Assembly (NCBI RefSeq): GCF_029227915.1
Contig: NC_079877.1
Span: forward strand, 23,275,851-23,339,850
Direction: 5' to 3'
DNA length: 64,000 nt
Source: Hydractinia symbiolongicarpus
Lineage: Eukaryota; Cnidaria; Hydrozoa; Anthoathecata; Hydractiniidae
Both the position numbers and the translations under genes were made by a program. Each line of letters begins with the position of its first letter. The stretch's first letter is position 1. The notes under the pieces are model-generated. The model searched no databases. It worked only from the letters and a program-made list of their open reading frames with translations, and was not told the origin of the DNA. This document shows, one piece after another, positions 14,520 through 56,194 of the stretch.

Positions 14520-17500
14520 TGCGGAATCGTTCAACTTGTTAATTAGCAGAAAGTCATGTTAGTGGAATTCCCCCATAAAGTCGGTTTATGAAAATAGAAA
14601 AACCAAAAATTATGTTCTTTTACTGAGAATTTATTTATTTATTTATTTTATATATTTATTTATTTTTTATTTGAAATAATGTTTTTACAGGATGACATAT
14701 TCAGTATGTCATATAGAAATACATTCTGTGCTGCTATCAATTAGGGTTCTGTTTGGAAAAAATAAAAAATGATAATATATATGATTATATATGATTATAT
14801 ATAAATATCAACACTTTAGAAAATGTCACGCTAAAAACTAACTGACAGAAGGGAAACAGAGAAAGTATGCACGCCATAGAAGTCGAAGAATTTTTTACAG
14901 TATTTTTGCAGTTCAAGTTAAAAGCATTTTTTGGACAAAATTTTAGTCGTGTTTTTTTTCTTTTTAGGCAGTACGTCAGAATACTTTAGGTAACCATTTT
15001 GTGTGATGTTGTTTTTTTTAAAAAAAGGAAAATTGCTTTTTAATGTGAGCCTTCCAAGAAAAAAATTGTTTTCACCGAGAAAAATCACTGGAAAATATTA
15101 TTCACTCTAAAAAATACTAAGACATGATAACTCCCTTAATACAAATTTCCAGAATTAGGATATCACCCTTGTTCTCAACATCACGTCGTGTTATAATTTT
15201 TAAATATGGCTTACTTTGGAATTCTAAGTAATTTTGTCCAAAATAAGACGTAGAGCAGAAGCTAAAAATATGACAAAAATAAGTTAGAAGATCCTAAGAA
15301 TAGCTGTGAATTGCTTGGCAGACCTGTTACATTTTAGCACTTCAATGCATAGAAAAAGGAGTTTAAAATCCAACTTGCTCCAATATGAGAACAAATAGTA
15401 GATCAATTCTAAAATCACAAATGTTTGATTTATGAGCTTTAAAAATTGTAAAACTACTCAGTTATTGAATATAACTAAAATAAGGTATAATCAATGACCG
15501 GAGACACAGGATATACGCCAGCACCACTACCCATTTTGATAAATAACTTGAATTTTTACAAGAAAACTTCACTTTGGTTCGGTATGGAATTTTATGGGAC
15601 TGTTTAGGTAATAGAGACTGGGTTATGATCTTTAGAAGAAAACTGTAGCTAAATTTAAAATTCGTCATACGTAAACCTTATTTCTGAAGGAAGTGCACAA
15701 TTTGGGACTTTCATTCTTCTTCATACAACAAAAAGACGTGTTACTAGTCATATTTAAAAATCTTCAGCTTTAAATCTTTGTCAAACGTTACCTTATATGG
15801 CCAGCGAAAGGTATATTTTTAAGGCTTTCCGCCATCTTCGATGGTAACCATTGTAACCAGCATGTCCAATGTTGGTATTTTTAAAGTCGCATGATGCAAT
15901 GCTTTCAATTGATATATACTTTGTTTTGGAATGTTTTCAATATTATACACTTTATGTTTGAAATAATTAGTGTTTGTGTTTTTGTAGTGTTATGTTTTTC
16001 TAGGAAAAGTAATATAAATATTGACTTGCTAACAGCGGTTGCGTTTTTTCAAAAAAAATCATATTCAAAATGTTGTAAATAAAATATATATCTATATATT
16101 TATACATAACTATGGGGTGCCCCGTATGTGTAAAATTATGTTGTCTCGTCAATCTTAAATATGCTGTGTTAAGTATTCATGAAAAGTACAGTTAAAATGT
16201 CGTAAGCAGGGCACATATTTGGAATAATTGAATGAAATTTATCAGATTAGGACAAAAGAAAAGATCTTCGTGAAAAAGGAATCGATGAAGAAGTAAGGTT
16301 TCAGAAATGAAATACATTTATTTATTTATTTTATTTATTTTACTTCGAATATTTATTATACACAAAATTGCTATTTCAGCTAAATAATATTTTTGTTTTA
16401 CAAGACCGTCCTGTGTTCTATATTCTACATTTACAACTAAAAATCAAATATGCAACATAAAAATTTTGAAGAGTATATAGTACAAACGTACCCAAGTAGA
16501 ACAAGTTCATGATTTCCACTCGTTTCATATGTAGCTAGTTTAGAACTTTTATACCACTTTACACGACTTCGTTTTTATGGAAATTTTACATAATACATAA
16601 TTATATTATATTATTATACATAATTATACTCAAAAAACAGTAAAGTAGGTTAAGTAGATTCTCAATACTTTTCTTAAATTTAACCATTTTAAGCTTTTTG
16701 ATGAATTTAATTCTCCTATAAAAGAAAAAAATTAAAATGTTTCACATTTTAAAGAAAACATCATTTATCAAGAGCTTTCTTCCATGATAAAACACCAAGT
16801 TATTTTCTTTTTAAAAGGTTTGAAAAGCTTTAGCATACGAAAATTTTCTGAAAAATATATAAAGTGTTCTGCACAACTTTCCAAGTTCTTTTATATCAAC
16901 TAAACTTGCATTTTTTTTAAGTTGTATCAGCAACCCCAGAACATCAGCAAAGTAGTGTCATTGTAAAACAACAATTTCCAAACTTTATTGGGTGTTATTA
17001 ACACAGTCTTGTATGAAAGGTTTTACACTATGAACTTTGTTAATTGACTGCTTTTGCTTATTTATCTGACAATAAAGAAGTCCAGTAAAAAAGCATTTTG
17101 AATTTGGTGTTCAGGTTAAAACTCGGGAATTTCTAAGAAAATATTTAAAAATTAAAGATGTCTAAGAAAAATTTCCCTTTATTTCAATATCTATGAAATT
17201 CAATAGATATAATGAATATATGGCTATCAAAATAATTTTTAATAATTAATTATTTTCGCCATAGCAATAAATGTAAGGGAATTTCCACCAGAGAACTTCT
17301 ACCATTACCATTATAGCAACAAATCAGGATAATTCAAAGGCGAATCCGCACATAGATGACTTTACCGTTCACCTCAAAGAACCGTTCAAAGAAATTTGGA
17401 TGCCCTACACATTTTCTGGTATTAAATGCGTTCCGCTTTCACTTTGTCACCTTCAGATATGTTTTGGTAGGTGGTAGATTCTATTTTTAGGCAACAATTT

Positions 17501-17744
17501 AACATATTGCCATACTGGTATTATAAAGTCAAGCCTACTATATCTAAATCTTTGTATCTTTATGCATCTATTTTGTCAGAATAAAAGGTTCAAATAATGA
17601 TTGGAACAAGTAAAATACATATTTTGTCTTATCACCAAGAACCATATAGTTGAGATGGATTAAGAGAGCAGGTTACAAGAACGTAAAGAAAAAGAATATT
17701 TACAGATCCTTTAGGGTTATAAAGAATTACAAAAATGTAATATT
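14520..17744. other. Gene-free A/T-rich interval
   Basis: No supportable exon is seen. The interval holds ATTT-type simple repeats (about 14627-14672 and 16315-16346) and short ATATAT tracts (14778-14805, 16081-16103). Short open frames here have no recognisable domain, and I treat them as chance. Confidence 0.5.
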
Positions 17745-18680
17745 AAAAATGTTGCGAATAATCTAGGCCATTAAATAGCAAGAAATGTTTTGTGATTTTC
17801 TTAAAATACGTCAACAAGCAAATGGATTTTTTGTCTTCAGCTAAGATTGTGTTCTATAACAATGGCCCACGATAAGATAGTGAATATCTACTGGTCACTA
17901 GCAAGGTCACTGGAATGTTAAAATTGTTTTTTGAATATCTTCTGTGATACATGTGTTTTATTTGTAAAAACTGATCTTTAAAGGCCTTGGGTGCAATGCC
18001 ATACTTGATTTTATACATAAACAACAGGATTTGGTGCATGTTCAGTTTGTTGGTACTCAAGGCCCGCTATTTCTCCTAATAATAATTCGGCTGTGTCATT
18101 GCCAAATATTATGTGACATGCGTAAATTTTTGTAGCCTTAGAATGATTAGTACTACCTAGGCAACGTTACAATATGTTAAATAACTGTAAATAAAGAAAA
18201 AGTATAAATTATATATATATACATATAAAGGCAATGAAAATTAAGTAATGGCTTCGCTTTGTATAATATTCCAATATCTTTGGAAATTTCTTTCTCTACT
18301 GCTTGTAATGTAAGTTTTCGTCAATAGGAACACCTTATAAGATTAGAAAGCTTTTCTTTTTTATGCTAATTTCATTTCTAAATAGAATTGGAAGTTTTAA
18401 TGGTATCTGCTTTAGAATTTTCTCAGAATAGCGCATATTTTGTTATATTTACAATTAGGGATAGTTTTCTTTGCTATAATCCATTCATTAATACTACCCA
18501 GTTCTTTGTTTACCGCAGTAAAGAGTGTTTTCATAATTTTTATGACCATAGAATAAGTTAGTATCATCAGCAAAAAGAAAATAATTAGTAAGTTTTGATG
18601 CATAAGGCAAATCATTAACATATATTAAAATAAATGCGGTCCAATAGAGAGACATTTTTTAGTTCAGTCGTATTATTACC
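17745..18680 (-). mobile_element. LINE reverse transcriptase relic
   Basis: Several minus-strand frames together describe the end of a non-LTR retrotransposon ORF2. The segment 18520-18612 reads LPYASKLTNYFLFADDTNLF, with the FADD catalytic motif. The segment about 18070-18170 retains FGNDTAELLL. The segment 17854-18060 has LLFMYKIKYGIAPKAFKDQF and YSLSYRGPLL, the usual RGP-x-W end with the Trp lost. The ORF ends near 17750. Multiple frameshifts and stops show it is dead. It differs from the LINE relic at 7.8 kb. Confidence 0.75.
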
Positions 18681-18699
18681 GTGATACGTACAATGCGTC

Positions 18700-19830
18700 T
18701 TCCCAACAATGGAGAGCGTCAATGTGAGATATCGTGCTTTATAGATAGATTAAATTGGGCACGTTAATTGACTTTATTGCCTCCGAATTTTTATGTTTAT
18801 TCGATATTTTGTTGGTCATATTCACAGTCTATATGCGTCTGTATTACCGGCATCAAAACTTAACAAAAATAAAACGGGTAATGCTAAAGCGACCTTCAAG
18901 AACCCCCACAATGATAAAAAATCAGTCACCTGTGACCCCAAACCATCCCCAATAACCCAACGAATCCAAATGAACCTACAAGCATTCTTGCATTACAAAA
19001 AATTACCCGGAATGCGATTTCGCCTAAACATAAAAAAGTAAATTCTTAGAGGTATACTTCGTGATTTCATAAATTTTCGGCAAATTCGCAAAGCGCTTCA
19101 ATTCTTATAGATAAAGCTAGTAAGATTTAATCGAGTTTCACAAGAGATTAATCTCGCGAATAGCAGAAGTGGAGGAATGTTGTTTCTTTTCCAAATAATG
19201 TTTTTTCCAAAAATTTTAATGTTTCAGAATTTCTTCTCACATATCTTTTGAAAATTGCGTGTTCACTGTACAGTTGTGAAAACAAAACTTATATCTAGCA
19301 GTAAATTGTTACATAATCTTTTTATCTAAATTTTCAAAATTTGATCTGCAAATAACTGTAACTCTATACACATAACCTTGAAAACAAAAAAGTTCAATTT
19401 CTACAAAATGTTTAACAGAGTCTGTCTTAACTCACCCTATGGATTGATGTGATTATTTTAATTTTACTTAAAAAATTCCTATTAAAAATTTATTCTGTTT
19501 TTGTGTTTACAAGTAAACAATAGGAACAAATTATCAAGTAACTTAAAGTTCATAACGAAGATAAAGTAAAAAGAAAAGCATTGCTGACGAGTAAGATTCG
19601 GATTATACATGTTGTACGTGTGCGGCCAAAATTTCAAAATTTGATTAAGATTCTCACCTGGATATACATATTGCCATACATAAAACTAAACTATTCTTAA
19701 AAATAAAGTACGGAACAAAAATAAGTAACCAATACATTTAACTGCACTAGTGCGTGCAGCTGCAAACACTGATTAAAATAAATTATAGTATCATATGATT
19801 TAGGTGAGCGGTTAAGAAGATACTAAGGTA
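18700..19830. other. Interval with no recognised gene
   Basis: Overlapping plus-strand frames at 18755-19041 are open but have no domain, no initiation context and no splice support that I recognise. The remainder is A/T-rich and featureless. Confidence 0.45.
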
Positions 19831-19839
19831 TGAAAATAT

Positions 19840-20335
19840 TGTCGACATCAGCTATGACGCGTCCATATTCGAAAGAAAACCCGATCAAGAAAATGTATAA
19901 AATCGTGTGTTTTTAACGAACCTTTGCATAGATATTGTGATTTAAAGTTATTCTGCCCCTAACTTAAGGAATTGGTCCTATTTTAGGTCCACTAATCTCA
20001 GTATACGCTTTGTCGTCGTGCCGTGACATGGAAAAAATGAACACATAGGGTATAACTTTTTCGGCAGCATTAAAGGAAAACGGGCACATCTACCTTACCT
20101 GCTACGGACTGATAAAAACAAAATTGTGTATTAGTATATAGAATAATAGTTGTAATCATCTACGTGCTTAGCAGTCAAAGATTTAAAGTATTAAATGACA
20201 TCAACTCTAACTTTGCAAAATGTTTCGTTCAGAAGTGTACTCTTTCCGATTATTGTATAGAGCTTGACACGCTGATTAAAAGACATATAAAAATTTATGT
20301 AATTTCGTCGAACTATTGACAAGGACCAGGGATTG
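19840..20335. repeat. Diverged copies of the 13-14 kb interspersed repeat
   Basis: Motifs shared with the 13.3-14.5 kb block include GAAAATGTATA-AATCGTGT, ATTGGTCCTA-TTAGGTCC, TAACTTTTTCGGC and AAAGGAAAACGGGCACATCTA. A second partial copy runs about 20190-20330 (TGTATAGAGCTTGACACGCTGATTA). Orientation is the same as in the main block. Confidence 0.6.
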
Positions 20336-20339
20336 AGGA

Positions 20340-21105
20340 TTAACCCTATTCGGTCCGGGGCGGGGGAGGGGGACGGAAATAACTCTAAACGCTATGGTGC
20401 ATGGATATGACACTTACTGAGTTTTAATATCTATATATTATACACCTACATGCCAAATTATTAGATCACTTTTACCCGAAACTACCCGTAGAAATCTCTA
20501 CGTATTTATAATTGGAAAAATATAATAAATCTTGTTTGCATTATCCTTAGAAGTTGGCAACTTTTCATGCGATGTAAATAACGAACAATATGTTAAATGA
20601 CTTTTATGTAGCTTCCAGAAACTTTAAACAGATTGTAAAAATTTGCTCTAGAACTAAAGTAATTGAAATTTAAGCGGATGGGAGTATTTTGGACAAATTT
20701 CGAGGTTTTGATGACGTCACAGGAAATGTGCTGACGCAAGAAATTTTATTACTGTGATTGTGTTCCTTTTGTGACGTACTATAAGTGTGCCATGTTTGAT
20801 TCAATTTGAACAAAACTGTGAAAAGCTTACTTGTTTTTTCACTCGTTCCAGTTTTAACCTTTGCAATCAATGTATGGTTTTCACCAAGCACTTTAATTGA
20901 ACTCACTTTCACCATGAATTTTTACAATAACTTCCATGTCACAACGCTTAAGCCAAAATCATAAAATATTTGCAAATGTAGAAATGGTAAGTTATTGTGC
21001 ACATTTTAAGCAGTATTTTAAGAAGTATAATACAAAGTGACTTAGTGGGGATATACCCCCTTCCCTCTCCCCTACCTCTCCCCCCCCTCCCCTCACCCCT
21101 TGTTC
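20340..21105 (+). mobile_element. piggyBac-like MITE copy B
   Basis: TTAA at 20340-20343 is followed by CCCTATTCGGTCCGGGG, the same terminus as copy A at 6981-8129, in opposite orientation. Internal homology is extensive: CACTTACTGAGTTT, CATGCCAAATTATT, GAAATCTCTACG, GATGACGTCACAGGAAATG, and TTTTGTGACGTACTATAAG. The right end is C-rich (21055-21100), but the terminal CCGGACCGAATAGGGTTAA is missing or decayed, so the exact end is uncertain. It lies about 240 bases upstream of the 654-aa ORF. Confidence 0.72.
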
Positions 21106-21336
21106 CCACAGCAAAAGTAGAGTTGATAATCAGCATCCATACTACCAAACTTATACCAAACTTATCCCAACTGTCCATCTACTTATAAAGATTTAGACCA
21201 TTTTCAATTTCATTTGTGAAAGTTGCGTTGGATTTACGTCTAGTTTATTATTCGTATCCTTATCAATATCAATAAGAACATCAATTTCGATTTCGTTTTT
21301 AACGGTGCATTCACAGACTATTCCCTTAATTTTTTT

Positions 21337-21338
21337 AG
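21337..21338 (+). promoter_or_regulatory. Splice (or trans-splice) acceptor just before the deaminase-like ORF
   Basis: A pyrimidine-rich AATTTTTTTAG ends at 21338, only 6 bases before the ATG. It implies either an upstream exon or spliced-leader addition, which is known in hydrozoans. The AG belongs to an in-frame TAG, so any coding extension would have to come from another exon. Confidence 0.5.
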
Positions 21339-21344
21339 ATAACA

Positions 21345-23309
21345 ATGGATGCTCGTTCAATATGCTTTAATTTGACATGCCATAAAAGTAATCATGGTGG
21401 AGGTTGCAGATTTGATACTAATTTTCAAAAAATGTTAGATTCCTATCACATTGAGGAAATATTTAACAAATTTATTTGGAACAATGAGAATATTTTAATG
21501 ACATCTGCTAAATGGGCAACCTTAGAAGAATTCCAAATATTAATAAGCAAGTATGAATGCATGGATCAAGTTAAGCAGATAATAATAAGGGAAGGTGGTG
21601 GTATTGTTGTTTCTGCACTCTTAAATGAGGACGAAAATGTTATTAAATACATGGCAGAAGAAATTAAAATACTTCCCACATATTCAAATCGTAAATCAGC
21701 TTTAGGGTTAGCCGTTGAAAAGAACAACATAAAAGCGGTGGCGATTTTATATAAACATATGAAAAACTATCTTGAAAATAGGGGAAATGAGGATAAAGAA
21801 ATTGATTCTCAATTAGATTCCTCTTTCCACCAGGAGGAAAAAGAAGTTGGATTGTTTGTTAAACGCTACCTAAAAGATTACATTTATTTTGAAAGAGAGG
21901 AAAGGAGAGAACAAATCGCCGAACTTTTGATGCATTCTGTATTCTTTGACGAAGAAGATTTTAAAAATGTACTTGTTTATACTGCTCGATACTCCCCGAT
22001 AAATACAATATTTTGCGTTTTTGATCTAATACGTGATTTTTTTCCTAACTATTTCAGAGAGAAAATAAAGAGTTTAGATTCAAACGAAGAAGACGTCTTA
22101 TCAATTATTGCAAAATACAGATTGACTAATCCCAATAATGTTTTAAGAGAAAATATCAATCCAAATAGTGAAGACATTATATCAATTATAGAAGAATATA
22201 AATTACGGGAGATTGCGATAACGCCTGAAGATTTTAGGGAACTTTACAAGAAGTATTTTTACAATAAAAATGTCCCACGAACAAATTATACAAAGAAAGG
22301 ATCTGCATTATATTACTTAATACTTCACAAACAATTTGAATTAGCATTGTTTGTTCTGCAAAAAACAAACTTTAAGAAATGTAATTCTGAACAAAAAAAT
22401 AGTTTTCTAAAAGCAATCGAAGAACTCCGATGGAAGCTTCAGGATATGCACTTGGAGAACGAACAAGTGAGAACATCCTGGGGTGAAGCCTTGTCAGTAC
22501 CCTTAAATGATGGCACAAGTAAACGAAAACCAAAGTTAATACCAAGTCGGCAATTAAGAGAAAAGAAAAGTATGGCATCAAATAGAAAAGGGCAGCTACT
22601 TCGCCAAATAGCAACACAGTTATTTTACCGCTGGAATAACCAAAAGAATAAAACATTAACAGAAGTTCAAGTAATGCAAGTGACAAATGGAATTAGGTTG
22701 ATAATTTTTGTAGCGTTTAATCCCGCAGACAACTGCATAGTTAAAAAGATTAAAGAAGATACATCTAAGATGCAGTCAGTGCTTAAAGTGGTTCAAACTG
22801 ACTACAGTATCAGATATAGTACACATCGATCAAATCGTTACAGCAAAAAACTACGAAAGCGTCTAGGCAATCAGCCTAACAAAATCCTTTCTAAGGTGTT
22901 AAGTCAAACTCCTGTGATTGTGAATAGCTTGGATAATTTTGAATACGAATGGCAGAATTTCTATGTGCTATGTCTTTCCAATGTTGCTGACACCAAGAGA
23001 CACGCAGAAGAGATTTTATGCGACGCTGCTAGCAATTTAAAAGAAGATTTCGAACCTCGTGACTTGACATTCTCCATTTATGGAAAAAGACGACCATGCA
23101 TGAGCTGTCTTGGGCGAATGAGAACTGCAGGAATTCATCATTTTAATCCTAATCCTGGATACTTTTGGTATTCTTCAATCGGTCATCAGTCAGAAGATTG
23201 TGCTAAAGAAACACTAAATATTTTGATGACAGAAGTACCACACGTGACCATTGAGAATGATGAAGAGCTTTTAGATTATGATACTAGGTCGGATTCGGAT
23301 TCAGATTAA
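21345..23309 (+). CDS. Intron-free 654-aa protein with predicted zinc-dependent deaminase domain
   Basis: The ATG at 21345 has a strong context (AACAATGG). Residues 1-25 hold spaced Cys/His (C7, C12, H13, C21). Residues 40-340 are mostly helical, with two ankyrin-like hairpins: SALGLAVEKNNIKAVAIL near 118-135 and SALYYLILHKQFELALFVL near 320-338. A basic linker follows at about 375-420. From about 440 the pattern fits the cytidine-deaminase fold: a beta hairpin (VQVMQVTNG, LIIFVAFNPAD), then H553-A-E555, then P584-C585-x-x-C588 about 30 residues on. His and two Cys would bind zinc, and Glu would be the proton shuttle. The tail (637-654) is acidic. The layout of helical repeats plus terminal deaminase recalls nucleic-acid deaminases of the bacterial-toxin/AID-like assemblage; the substrate is unknown. 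An AATAAA lies at 23479. Deaminase assignment rests on motifs only. Confidence 0.75.
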   Translation: MDARSICFNLTCHKSNHGGGCRFDTNFQKMLDSYHIEEIFNKFIWNNENILMTSAKWATLEEFQILISKYECMDQVKQIIIREGGGIVVSALLNEDENVIKYMAEEIKILPTYSNRKSALGLAVEKNNIKAVAILYKHMKNYLENRGNEDKEIDSQLDSSFHQEEKEVGLFVKRYLKDYIYFEREERREQIAELLMHSVFFDEEDFKNVLVYTARYSPINTIFCVFDLIRDFFPNYFREKIKSLDSNEEDVLSIIAKYRLTNPNNVLRENINPNSEDIISIIEEYKLREIAITPEDFRELYKKYFYNKNVPRTNYTKKGSALYYLILHKQFELALFVLQKTNFKKCNSEQKNSFLKAIEELRWKLQDMHLENEQVRTSWGEALSVPLNDGTSKRKPKLIPSRQLREKKSMASNRKGQLLRQIATQLFYRWNNQKNKTLTEVQVMQVTNGIRLIIFVAFNPADNCIVKKIKEDTSKMQSVLKVVQTDYSIRYSTHRSNRYSKKLRKRLGNQPNKILSKVLSQTPVIVNSLDNFEYEWQNFYVLCLSNVADTKRHAEEILCDAASNLKEDFEPRDLTFSIYGKRRPCMSCLGRMRTAGIHHFNPNPGYFWYSSIGHQSEDCAKETLNILMTEVPHVTIENDEELLDYDTRSDSDSD

Positions 23310-23478: not shown

Positions 23479-23484
23479 AATAAA
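23479..23484 (+). terminator. Polyadenylation signal of the deaminase-like gene
   Basis: AATAAA lies 170 bases after the stop codon in an A/T-rich 3' flank. It is the first canonical hexamer downstream of the ORF. Confidence 0.5.
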
Positions 23485-25203: not shown

Positions 25204-26088
25204 TCATTCTCCAAAGACAAAAACACGTGCTTCACGCTTTAACTCCTTTGATCGAAAACCATAAATAAATGTATCGAACAAAGCATTGCAACCTGCAATA
25301 ATAACAACCCATGTTTCCCAGTACGAATGATTCGCTGGTGAGTGTTTCAAAGTATTGATTATGTTAAAGGCAATTGATGGAACACTGACCATTCCGTACA
25401 CAAACAGCACTTCTAAGGCAACACGCATCGCCTTTTTATTCCGCTGGCCTGATGAAATTCCTTGATTTTTGTGTAAGTAAGCACTAACTCGGTATTGGCA
25501 TATTATTAAGGATATAAGAATGGCAAATCCGTAAACAGTCATAAACGCACGGTACATCCACCAAAAATTTGGAAAAGCAAACTTGGTAACGAATGGCGAT
25601 ATTATACATACGAACCATACTGCCGTTAGTATTTTGGGAAATAGCTTTCTTTTCACGCGCGCTTTATAAGCAATTGGATTTACTACTGCTAAGTAGACTT
25701 CCATAGTAATGCACGCAATTGCAGAAATTGACATTGTTGTGTTTGCGTATCCTAGAACTGACCATATTGGGACTAGAAAACAATATGGCGAGTTCTTGTA
25801 GAAGCCAATTGATAAATAAACGTACACAGGAATATACGTGAGTCCCGATAGTAAATCCGAAATGGATAGCATGACGTATAAAATATTTACTTTGCTCCTC
25901 ACAGATTTCTTTGCTGATACAAGCATCAGCAGCAATCCATTGGAACCTATGACCAAACAGCTTAACAGGATAGCAACATAGCATGATATAATCAGATTCC
26001 ATCGAACAACTTTGGTTTTATAGATTTCAAAATTGTACTGTAAACACCATAGACTGTCTTCTAGAGACTGGTTAGTACGGTTGGTCAT
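25204..26088 (-). CDS. Class A (rhodopsin-like) GPCR, 294 aa, EVY variant
   Basis: A single-exon seven-helix receptor in the plasma membrane, predicted to signal through G proteins. The N-terminus has two N-glycosylation sites (N3, N6). TM1 (about 32-57) carries GSNG with N50; TM2 has D78 (SISDLL); C103 opens TM3. The DRY motif is replaced by E130-V-Y132. W158 marks TM4, P237 TM6, and TM7 ends NALFDTFIYGF (268-278) in place of NPxxY. The family is the cnidarian-type divergent class A set; the ligand cannot be told. Closest relative in the window is the receptor at 39.7-40.6 kb (shared VNILYVMLS-SDL and E-x-YLAV). The length is complete with a very short C-tail. It lacks the TM7 lysine of opsins. 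Confidence 0.88.
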   Translation of the reverse strand: MTNRTNQSLEDSLWCLQYNFEIYKTKVVRWNLIISCYVAILLSCLVIGSNGLLLMLVSAKKSVRSKVNILYVMLSISDLLSGLTYIPVYVYLSIGFYKNSPYCFLVPIWSVLGYANTTMSISAIACITMEVYLAVVNPIAYKARVKRKLFPKILTAVWFVCIISPFVTKFAFPNFWWMYRAFMTVYGFAILISLIICQYRVSAYLHKNQGISSGQRNKKAMRVALEVLFVYGMVSVPSIAFNIINTLKHSPANHSYWETWVVIIAGCNALFDTFIYGFRSKELKREARVFVFGE

Positions 26089-39690: not shown

Positions 39691-40566
39691 TTATGCCTGC
39701 GAACTACTGGTACCCAATGCCCTTTGAAAATAAACTTTCACTGTTTTTAGTCGTAAAGAGTAAATTAGTCCGTTAAACAGTGGATTAAATGTGCCGATAA
39801 AACACGTCCATGGTGTTAAATAGCTGTTAACAAACAAGTCATTGACTGAGAAAATGAGAAGAAAATTCGATACAATGAGAGGGAGAAAAGACACAGCGTA
39901 ACAAGTTAGCAACAGGATAGCTGTTTTCAACGAATGCTTTTGACCACCTCTTAATTTTACGCTGCTACGAATAGCACAATGAGCTTTTCGTTGACTAATA
40001 ACGATCATTGTAAATACAACCACACTGTAAAAGGGAAAAACTAATAAATATTTTCTCCACCAGTTTTTCATATATGTTGCCAATACTGGTACAGTAACAC
40101 ATAGTACCCAAACAGCCAGCAACAAAAATGGCAACACATTTTTTTCTTTTCTTGCTCTATGCTTGAATGGGCATCTAACAGCTAGGTAGATTTCAATTGT
40201 AATGATAAGAACAGCCGATAGCGACATCGAGCAAAGTATATATTTCAAGACAGCCAAAAATGAACGCCTCCTACAAAAGTCATTTAAGTCGCCAGTGACA
40301 GACACAGAAGTTGTCGCTAAAACGATTAGACCGTATATCAGGTCCGACGTTGAGAGCATTACGTATAAAATATTCACTGATTTTCTCACTTCAGCTTTTA
40401 CGATAAGCAGTCCTATAAAACAGCCGTTTACTGCGATGATAAATATCGTCAAAATCAATGTTAGAATAGCAGTTGAAAATATGGTAATTTCGACATGTTT
40501 GTATGGTAATATCTGATGCGAAAAAGCTCCACAAATTATTGCATCCGAAGAGTTAGTCAACGTCAT
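39691..40566 (-). CDS. Class A GPCR, 291 aa, EIY variant
   Basis: A single-exon seven-helix receptor. N5 is a possible glycosylation site. TM1 carries A-V-N47-G, TM2 D75 (STSDLIYG) and C98 precedes TM3. The DRY motif is replaced by E125-I-Y127 followed by LAVRCPF. W153 lies in TM4, P229 in TM6 (SFLPLIVSN), and TM7 is NPLFNGLIYSLR (261-272), a good NPxxY variant. The VNILYVMLS-SDL block and the E-x-YLAV motif show it belongs with the receptor at 25.2-26.1 kb, about 13.6 kb away and on the same strand. The two have diverged strongly, so the duplication is old. Ligand unknown; the TM7 lysine of opsins is absent. Confidence 0.88.
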   Translation of the reverse strand: MTLTNSSDAIICGAFSHQILPYKHVEITIFSTAILTLILTIFIIAVNGCFIGLLIVKAEVRKSVNILYVMLSTSDLIYGLIVLATTSVSVTGDLNDFCRRRSFLAVLKYILCSMSLSAVLIITIEIYLAVRCPFKHRARKEKNVLPFLLLAVWVLCVTVPVLATYMKNWWRKYLLVFPFYSVVVFTMIVISQRKAHCAIRSSVKLRGGQKHSLKTAILLLTCYAVSFLPLIVSNFLLIFSVNDLFVNSYLTPWTCFIGTFNPLFNGLIYSLRLKTVKVYFQRALGTSSSQA

Positions 40567-44094: not shown

Positions 44095-45006
44095 CTATAA
44101 TACGGAGTCTTGTTTGTGATATACTTTATGTTGTGAAGCACTTTCCCTATTTTCAGCTGGAAACGATGAAGTGGAATTTACTGGAAGTGTCTGTTTTCTT
44201 TTTAAAAGATTTAGTAGAGCGTGAGTTTTCCTAATTGTCTTTGTCCTTATAGCTGGTAGCATAAAGACATATATTAATGCATCTGAAAACAAATTCAAAC
44301 GTGTCCCAAAGTCATAATAAATGCTAATAATTTTCCCCTGATTTATATTGATAAGCAATGCGATATCAGGCAAGCCCTTGAATATGATAAAGGTAACTAT
44401 AATAATTATTGGTAGGACAAGTTTCTTGCTATTTTGTTTTCTGTATCTTCGATTTTGTAATCGAATCTTAACGATAATAAAAATATAGACAACCAGGAAC
44501 TGTAGTATTAACAGCACACTTAAGACTGGAAAAAGTTTCACAATGAAAACGTTAATAATTCTTAACAATTCCGGTTTCATTTCCAAAACAAACGTAAGCG
44601 AGATGATGTATGCGCAACAAAGACACCAACCACTGGAGATAAGTTTATTTTTGTAACGACGAAACATGGAACTGCGATATTTCATATGTAGGTATATCAA
44701 GAAAAATCGATCTTGCGTTATTAGGAACATGACTGTGTAAAACGGAAAAAGAAGAGCGTGATTCGCAAAGAGAAGATGCATATAACAAGTTGTTGATTTA
44801 CCGTTTGTCCATTCTCCATACTCAGTTATTGGCACTATGATGAAACTGACACAGCACTTTGCCATTTCATTTAAAGATAAACTGATCAAAAAATATTTTT
44901 GCTTTCCAACATTGATATTCTTTTCGATGATGCATTTCAAACCATATAAGTGTAATAAAAATGCTGGCCCTGCAATAAGAATATGTACAATGTTTATCCA
45001 ATTCAT
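44095..45006 (-). CDS. Class A-like GPCR, array member 1, 303 aa
   Basis: A single-exon seven-helix receptor with almost no N-terminal extracellular segment: TM1 starts at about residue 5. Landmarks are TM2 LISLSLNEMAKC (40-51) and C74 before TM3. D99-R100-F101 stands at the DRY position, W127 in TM4, P160 in TM5 and P213 in TM6 (FKGLPD, no CWxP). TM7 is FSDALIYVFMLP (240-251) in place of NPxxY. The TM1 Asn and TM2 Asp of typical class A receptors are not conserved, and no ECL2 Cys pairs with C74. The C-tail (about 50 aa) is Ser-rich. It is about two-thirds identical by eye to the paralogue at 47.9-48.8 kb; a pseudogene lies between. Ligand and coupling unknown. Confidence 0.85.
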   Translation of the reverse strand: MNWINIVHILIAGPAFLLHLYGLKCIIEKNINVGKQKYFLISLSLNEMAKCCVSFIIVPITEYGEWTNGKSTTCYMHLLFANHALLFPFYTVMFLITQDRFFLIYLHMKYRSSMFRRYKNKLISSGWCLCCAYIISLTFVLEMKPELLRIINVFIVKLFPVLSVLLILQFLVVYIFIIVKIRLQNRRYRKQNSKKLVLPIIIIVTFIIFKGLPDIALLININQGKIISIYYDFGTRLNLFSDALIYVFMLPAIRTKTIRKTHALLNLLKRKQTLPVNSTSSFPAENRESASQHKVYHKQDSVL

Positions 45007-55060: not shown

Positions 55061-56194
55061 ATGATGAATGATGGTTTGATATATTTAATCGCTGTATTTA
55101 GTGGAATCATATTCTCTGTATTCAATATCATTACAATCACTGTCATACTCATTGATAGAAAATTAAGAAGTTCTATCACTAACCGTCCTATTCTCAGTTT
55201 TCTTGTTGCATCCACAATTCAGGGACTTCTTCCAGCACCTTTATATGTTTATAAAAGATTGGTACAATCGCAGCATACATCTGAATGGGTTTGTGATGTA
55301 TATCGCCTTCTATATTTCTACTGTGGACATATGATGAAAATCAGCTTAGTTTTGGTTAGCATCGATCGATTATTAGCTGTCAAATATCCTTTCAAATATG
55401 ACAATTACATCACGAAAGCAAGAACAACAATATTGATAATATTCCTATGCATAGTTACTCTTTTTGTAGATACTTTACCATTTTACATCAATGTTGAGAG
55501 AACAGATGAATGTCAATACGTCCCAGTACGTATTTGGGGGCTTTTTGTTATCTCTTTGTATACTATATTACCATTTTTTCTTATTTTGATTAACTACATA
55601 CAAATATGGCTTGTCGCCGCAAGAATGGCCTTTAAAGATAAGAGATTGCGAGAACGTTTCCATAACGATGAAAATGAAAATGGTAGTGTGATTAGAAACT
55701 ACCGAGTTGACGATGAGGAAGAAAATGAAATGGATAAAGATGAAGATGAAGAAGTAAAAATGCTGAAAGATAGAAAGAAAATAAATTATGGTTCGATAAA
55801 CAGTATTATTCACATAAAGGCCAATGTAAAGTTTGCCTTTGAAATGAAAGCAACAAGGACATCTTTAGCATTGATTGCTGTTTATGTTTTCTGTTGGGGA
55901 CCGCTTGGTGTATTTTACATGATTGATCATTTTTGTTATAACTGTTTATCAGATGACGATGATTTGAAATTAACACGTGCTTTTGTTAAACTTTTATCCT
56001 TTTCATCAAGTATTTTAGCACCTATTGTGTATTGTTGGTGGAATAGAGATTTTAAAAAAGCAGCACAAAGGTTATGCGTACAGTATTGTTGTTTAAAAGT
56101 AAATAGGGAAAAGCAAAGAAGACAATCGCCATTGACGCAACAGACACAGCACTTAATTGAGACGAAGGACACATCAGTAACATCCTTTAATTGA
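55061..56194 (+). CDS. Class A GPCR, 377 aa, with acidic third intracellular loop
   Basis: A single-exon seven-helix receptor with canonical features. N22 lies in TM1, C78 before TM3 pairs with C151 in ECL2 (DECQY), and the DRY motif is D102-R103-L104. P171 is in TM5 (LPFFLILINY). ICL3 is long (about 190-262) with a strongly acidic run around 217-232. TM6 has C278-W-G-P281, and TM7 A320-P-I-V-Y324 followed by CWWNRDFKKA. Cysteines 339, 343 and 344 are likely palmitoylation sites; the tail is Gln/Thr-rich. These motifs resemble amine/peptide-type class A receptors of cnidarians. It is not an opsin, having no TM7 lysine at the retinal position. It is not closely related to the other receptors in the window and lies on the opposite strand. 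Two adjacent Mets start the ORF. Confidence 0.9.
   Translation: MMNDGLIYLIAVFSGIIFSVFNIITITVILIDRKLRSSITNRPILSFLVASTIQGLLPAPLYVYKRLVQSQHTSEWVCDVYRLLYFYCGHMMKISLVLVSIDRLLAVKYPFKYDNYITKARTTILIIFLCIVTLFVDTLPFYINVERTDECQYVPVRIWGLFVISLYTILPFFLILINYIQIWLVAARMAFKDKRLRERFHNDENENGSVIRNYRVDDEEENEMDKDEDEEVKMLKDRKKINYGSINSIIHIKANVKFAFEMKATRTSLALIAVYVFCWGPLGVFYMIDHFCYNCLSDDDDLKLTRAFVKLLSFSSSILAPIVYCWWNRDFKKAAQRLCVQYCCLKVNREKQRRQSPLTQQTQHLIETKDTSVTSFN

Follow-up and report, generated by a model that had tools for sequence, protein, structure and literature searches.

A divergent deaminase-type gene family with an ankyrin-like module in Hydractinia symbiolongicarpus and its relative in a Legionellaceae bacterium

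A 64,000-nucleotide stretch of the genome of the hydroid Hydractinia symbiolongicarpus (C3:23275851-23339850, hereafter the window) was analysed for a gene encoding a deaminase-type protein, located inside the 37-Mb contig C3. An uninterrupted open reading frame (ORF) of 654 codons, reported in an earlier note on this DNA, was confirmed at positions 21345-23309 of the forward strand, with its start ATG at 21345. The probability of such a stop-free run (655 codons at 32% guanine plus cytosine, GC) is about 4e-23 per start from base composition alone; because of this value, and because both deaminase motifs are found again in divergent paralogues, chance is excluded. The annotated gene, LOC130636312, encodes a 693-residue protein (P0002) that has 39 residues more at its N-terminus than the product of the window ORF (P0001). 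An upstream exon supplies 37 of the 39 and exon 2 the remaining pair, I-T; joining exon 17356-17466 to exon 2 gave a translation identical to P0002, letter for letter. The cnidarian host named in the earlier note was likewise supported. Bacterial contamination of the animal assembly is conceivable given that a bacterial homologue is known (see below), but we give it almost no credence: the gene lies in a contig of this size near rhodopsin-type receptor genes, its annotated model has a 3.9-kb GT-AG intron, and its divergent paralogues are spread over three contigs of 32-43 Mb.

The C-terminal part of the protein carries the motifs of the deaminase superfamily, in which zinc is held by a His and two Cys and a Glu serves as proton shuttle. 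HAE occupies residues 553-555 and PCMSC residues 584-588 of the window protein, with 28 residues between E555 and P584, in agreement with the spacing of about 30 residues noted previously. Across 12 distinct sequences of the family (P0005 counted with QAE), the gap between HxE and PCxxC is 25-29 residues, compared with about 25-30 in the superfamily; the P of PCxxC is replaced by A in L015, L016 and P0006. The H, the E and both Cys are among the 25 invariant columns of alignment A4, which has ten rows, one of them from the bacterium Tatlockia. The predicted model of the domain has the alpha/beta/alpha order of deaminases, the fold that the earlier note had proposed to look for, with HAE and CxxC each at the start of successive helices. 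Its best structural neighbours include guanine, cytidine, dCMP and yeast cytosine deaminases and TadA. Motif conservation, fold order and structural neighbours together support a deaminase-type domain. The beta-hairpin previously placed before HAE is present in the models (strands 440-447 and 452-459), but it does not lead directly into the motif, as a mostly helical insert of about 80 residues separates the two. After strand 4 the domain model has a helix at about residues 617-628 (compare the helix-4 division), where the predicted local distance difference test score (pLDDT) is mostly below 50. A full-length model (654 residues, five-row alignment) was set aside, its mean pLDDT being 52 and its PDB neighbours mostly unspecific helical repeats (exportins, CAND1).

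PDB sequence searches found no deaminase, the domain model had no match among viral structures at E <= 0.001, and NCBIfam returned one weak unrelated row and nothing else. PADLOC returned nothing for P0001 or the Tatlockia protein, and two weak rows for paralogue L010 (E 0.005 and 0.019).

The N-terminal part had been described as degenerate ankyrin-like, and this is supported: the window copy matches Ank_2 at 20.4 bits, below the cut-off of 27.3, and paralogue L011 passes the cut-offs for both Ank_2 (33.5 versus 27.3) and Ank_3 (28.4 versus 22.3). The N-terminal Cys/His cluster noted alongside it exists in the window copy, but the Cys-rich stretches of more distant copies fall elsewhere in the alignment, and a zinc cluster as a family-wide feature is not supported. 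The ankyrin module may have a sensor or targeting role.

A search of the animal's own genome gave 20 matches, which were grouped into at least ten loci on contigs C1, C3 and C10 (32-43 Mb), the count of ten being a lower bound. Six loci retain a single long open frame, namely the window gene, L010 (619 residues), L011 (628), L012 (605), and L015 and L016 (491 each); L009, L013 and L014 are fragmented. HAE and [PA]CxxC were found in 8 of the ten loci; the frames of L014 contain neither motif, and L017 (C3:10275312-10275569) is a remnant reading HPE and RPYMSC, with both motifs lost. The nearest genomic paralogue, L009 (C3:22.99 Mb), is 59% identical in the deaminase part and has its coding stretch split, by introns or insertions, over three open frames. 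In the protein database, the gene's own NCBI entry and four Logan proteins were the only matches; candidates had to share five-letter words with the query, and this result is therefore no proof of absence from other cnidarians. Three of the four Logan proteins have HAE (P0003, P0004 and P0006), and P0005, an otherwise well-kept copy, has QAE and is possibly inactive. L014 and L017 were excluded from the protein alignments because of broken frames or lacking motifs, with L014 kept in the tree, and L016, as a near-copy of L015, was excluded from A2, A4 and A6; P0006 represents L015 in A4.

For the deaminase part, nonsynonymous (dN) and synonymous (dS) divergence were 0.297 and 1.478 between the window gene and L009, and 0.249 and 0.616 between L010 and L012; dS was saturated or undefined for many other pairs, and these rows were dropped. 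The N-terminal part changes faster than the deaminase part, with identities of 48% versus 61% for L010 and L012, and of 27% versus 41% for the window gene and L010. The scatter of the ten loci over three contigs, and the single long open frame in six of them, would also be expected if the deaminase belonged to a transposable element, or were carried by one, that had spread across the hydroid genome. We regard this as very unlikely, since the 12 kb around the window copy have no non-coding DNA in common with the nine other loci at E <= 1e-5, the block containing L015 and L016 extends past the gene on both sides, and the intron of the annotated gene speaks against such an element. That block exceeds 19 kb at 93-99% identity; its two copies, at C1:12.84 Mb and 16.46 Mb, lie 3.6 Mb apart and are either a true duplication or a retained haplotype.

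The link to bacteria drawn in the earlier note gained support from a concrete homologue. A collection of 84,980 bacterial and archaeal species was scanned using A2, the alignment of the Hydractinia side, and two degenerate patterns, by which distant relatives can therefore be missed. The 68 pattern matches yielded one relative, a 399-residue ORF at L018:4653-5852 in the metagenome-assembled genome of Tatlockia sp. MGR_bin135 (Legionellaceae; JACCVV010000042.1). The A2 profile scores 150 bits against this protein (E 7.6e-39 on a scale of 5.8 billion proteins), compared with 11.4 bits for the best of 2000 shuffles. BLASTP of P0001 gave 27% identity over residues 408-652, and the comparison with locus L010 gave 44% over 113 terminal residues. 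The two sides have in common the whole domain, including the EVQxM strand, the RSxRY..K insert, RHAEExLCD, RPCxxCxGRM and YNxxPGxFW, as well as an acidic D[YF]D[TS]xSDSE tail. The Tatlockia protein differs in having no ankyrin match, an acidic stretch of 110 residues at its N-terminus (net charge -18) and a single match in its own genome. On this sequence evidence, one deaminase family is common to animal and bacterium. The GC content of the bacterial gene (35%) fits that of its 10.8-kb stretch (34%), and its upstream neighbour, on the opposite strand, is a resolvase; small ORFs nearby may encode a pair of HigBA type and a protein resembling RCC1. The Tatlockia organism may live inside cells, as its relatives do. 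Three scans of viral contigs revealed no relative, and none was found in plasmids searched with the Tatlockia protein.

The acidic tail deserves separate mention. The pattern D/Q-Y/F/C-D/G-T/S-x-S-D/N-S/T-D/E starts 51 residues past GRM (VRM in L013) in 12 distinct sequences, and the distance is equal in Tatlockia, where the deletion of one residue is offset by the insertion of another. A fixed distance of 51 residues would be unlikely for a floppy signal; we take the tail to belong to the folded domain or to dock on it. In the Tatlockia protein it could additionally be a secretion signal.

The Tatlockia homologue implies a transfer of the enzyme between bacteria and animals, either direct or via a third party, which may have been a protist. 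For the direction, we think that the hydroid line gained the gene from a bacterial effector-like gene and then expanded it. The opposite course, in which the animal family is the older and Tatlockia acquired the gene from a eukaryote and used it as an effector, is a possibility that we doubt but take seriously. Legionellaceae are known to take up eukaryotic genes. The Tatlockia protein aligns from residue 49 onwards and so already in the linker that precedes the deaminase domain, as would be seen if it had been trimmed from something longer. Among the related genomes searched, moreover, this Tatlockia genome alone carries the gene (1 of 143 in the family, 1 of 143 in the order, which is the same set, and 1 of 369 in the class, an even draw from a larger group). 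The tree does not decide the direction, as it is unrootable, its deep forks are weak and the long Tatlockia branch is placed with support of 46/15. Deaminase toxins, according to PMC3482391, are widespread in bacteria.

Coordinates within the window are given in Table 1. Seven other ORFs of at least 150 residues are neighbours of the deaminase gene in the window: three are rhodopsin-type receptors over cut-off, one is below it, and three have no match at E <= 0.01.

Table 1. Features of the deaminase gene and its neighbours, in window positions
Feature	Position	Strand	Basis
5' exon of LOC130636312, coding part	17356..17466	+	joined translation identical to P0002
Intron, 3872 bases, GT...AG	17467..21338	+	annotated model
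Main coding exon; ORF of 654 residues from ATG 21345	21339..23309	+	ORF and joined translation
Ankyrin-like region, residues 52-139	21498..21761	+	Ank_2 E 7.8e-4, below cut-off; Ank_2 over cut-off in paralogue L011
Deaminase-type domain, about residues 405-640	22557..23264	+	predicted model, structural neighbours, conservation
beta1-beta2 hairpin, residues 440-459 (EVQVMQV...IIFVAF)	22662..22721	+	predicted models
Basic, mostly helical insert (net charge +11) after the hairpin and before motif 1, residues 463-530	22731..22934	+	model and charge count
HRSNRYSKK, residues 494-502	22824..22850	+	all ten A4 rows, the bacterial one among them, keep R495, R498 and K502
HAE, predicted zinc ligand His553 and predicted catalytic Glu555	23001..23009	+	motif conservation
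PCMSC, predicted zinc ligands Cys585 and Cys588	23094..23108	+	motif conservation
Acidic C-terminal tail DYDTRSDSD, residues 644-652	23274..23300	+	set 51 residues downstream of PCxxC-GRM
AATAAA poly(A)-like signal	23479..23484	+	motif alone; 170 bases 3' of the stop
Single-ORF rhodopsin-type receptor genes (7tm_1)	25204-26088, 39691-40566, 55061-56194		over cut-off
Weak rhodopsin-type receptor match (7tm_1)	44095-45006		below cut-off

Comparison with known deaminases sets the family apart. AID/APOBEC-like enzymes (NAD1 PF18778, SNAD4 PF18750, APOBEC PF08210) resemble it in that HxE and PCxxC are co-aligned in the sub-threshold Pfam matches of some members, and differ from it in that the family has RPC or RAC, the insert of about 80 residues and the ankyrin fusion. 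In the AID/APOBEC-like family the Cys pair is opened by S-P-C; LSPC is present in the Hydractinia ORFs L027 and L029, and the rows examined for the present family read RPC or RAC. None of the NAD1, SNAD4 and APOBEC profiles matched the present family over cut-off (best NAD1 17.0 bits, in L010, and SNAD4 16.0, each versus 27), whereas the positive control L027 reached 33.4 with SNAD4 and 25.4 with APOBEC_N (cut-off 25). NAD1 searched over the animal's own genome hit three places, none over cut-off and none in the present family, and a relation of descent to AID/APOBEC was undetectable with hhalign (1.5%, against an alignment of only two rows). By these profile comparisons, the family is distinct from the SNAD4/APOBEC-like genes of Hydractinia. 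The latter include L027 (C4:23725920-23726084), a separate ORF over the SNAD4 cut-off, and L029 (C3:23258911-23259087), just under that cut-off. L029 precedes the window by about 16.8 kb, which places it about 38 kb away from the deaminase gene.

The polymorphic-toxin deaminases (MafB19, BURPS668_1122 and Pput_2613; PF14437, PF14424 and PF14427) have HAE/PCxxC in common with the family and give sub-threshold matches. No deaminase family profile, those of the toxins included, matched over its curated cut-off; the best score was that of L009 to BURPS668_1122 (Toxin-deaminase), 19.9 bits versus 29.6, and the window copy reached 13.0 versus 27 with MafB19. The animal genes have no recognized module for delivery or immunity. 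With TadA and guanine deaminase (PDB 2b3j and 1wkq), identity is 14-18% over 94-98 residues; neither the insert nor the ankyrin module of the family belongs to these enzymes. PMC3482391 describes deaminase toxins, made by bacteria that live as endosymbionts or parasites, whose presumed targets are host nucleic acids. The present family could be a further case of such a host-directed deaminase that now resides in an animal. Sequence analysis has led to the proposal, announced in the title of Iyer et al. 2011, that the editing and mutagenic deaminases of eukaryotes arose from bacterial toxin systems. Our literature search, whose comparison excludes that paper and Krishnan et al. 2018, the two likeliest to mention relatives, found no paper on the present family; the word 'deaminase' is absent from the available main text of the Hydractinia genome paper (PMC11067881), and the available portion of PMC11342252 holds nothing on the family.

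The family is new and divergent within a known superfamily, and both its architecture and its bacterial relative are unusual. Judged by their sequences, the intact proteins combine three parts: a helical module of ankyrin-like type, a deaminase domain carrying a basic insert, and a conserved acidic tail. We consider it fairly probable that this family, ankyrin-fused, linked to a bacterium and expanded in the hydroid, comprises zinc-dependent deaminases that act on nucleic acids. Two observations would also fit other readings. The enzymes found beside TadA among the structural neighbours would suit a metabolic or signalling deaminase acting on free nucleosides, nucleotides or bases; such an enzyme seems unlikely to us, as housekeeping nucleotide deaminases would hardly form a multigene family that changes fast, is fused to ankyrin repeats and carries a basic insert. 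Some copies, in addition, have lost catalytic residues (P0005 with QAE; L017 with HPE and RPYMSC), as would occur if the fold were retained as a non-catalytic, zinc-stabilized binding module. This too is improbable, given that H, E and both Cys are retained in 8 of the ten loci and in the bacterium.

For activity, substrate and role of a nucleic-acid deaminase, we infer the following scheme. The ankyrin module would bind a protein partner or position the enzyme, and the RxxRxxxK insert would grip the phosphate backbone of the nucleic acid. The HAE/PCxxC site, with H553, C585 and C588 on zinc and E555 as proton shuttle, would then deaminate a base, most likely cytosine, and the acidic tail at its fixed distance could be a regulatory or autoinhibitory element. 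More speculatively, and with some doubt, an unnamed nucleic-acid deaminase family may have been acquired by a hydroid lineage from a host-associated bacterium, a member or relative of the Legionella group, become fused to ankyrin repeats and been expanded into an intracellular arsenal for defence or editing, apart from the animal's AID/APOBEC-like enzymes and controlled in part by the tail.

The family adds to searches for base editing in cnidarians a deaminase class outside AID/APOBEC, ADAR and TadA, and is a candidate for defence or nucleic-acid editing. It also offers a candidate case, in a laboratory animal, in which the bacterial relative is recognizable across the whole domain, so that the step from an effector-like gene to an animal gene family is open to study.
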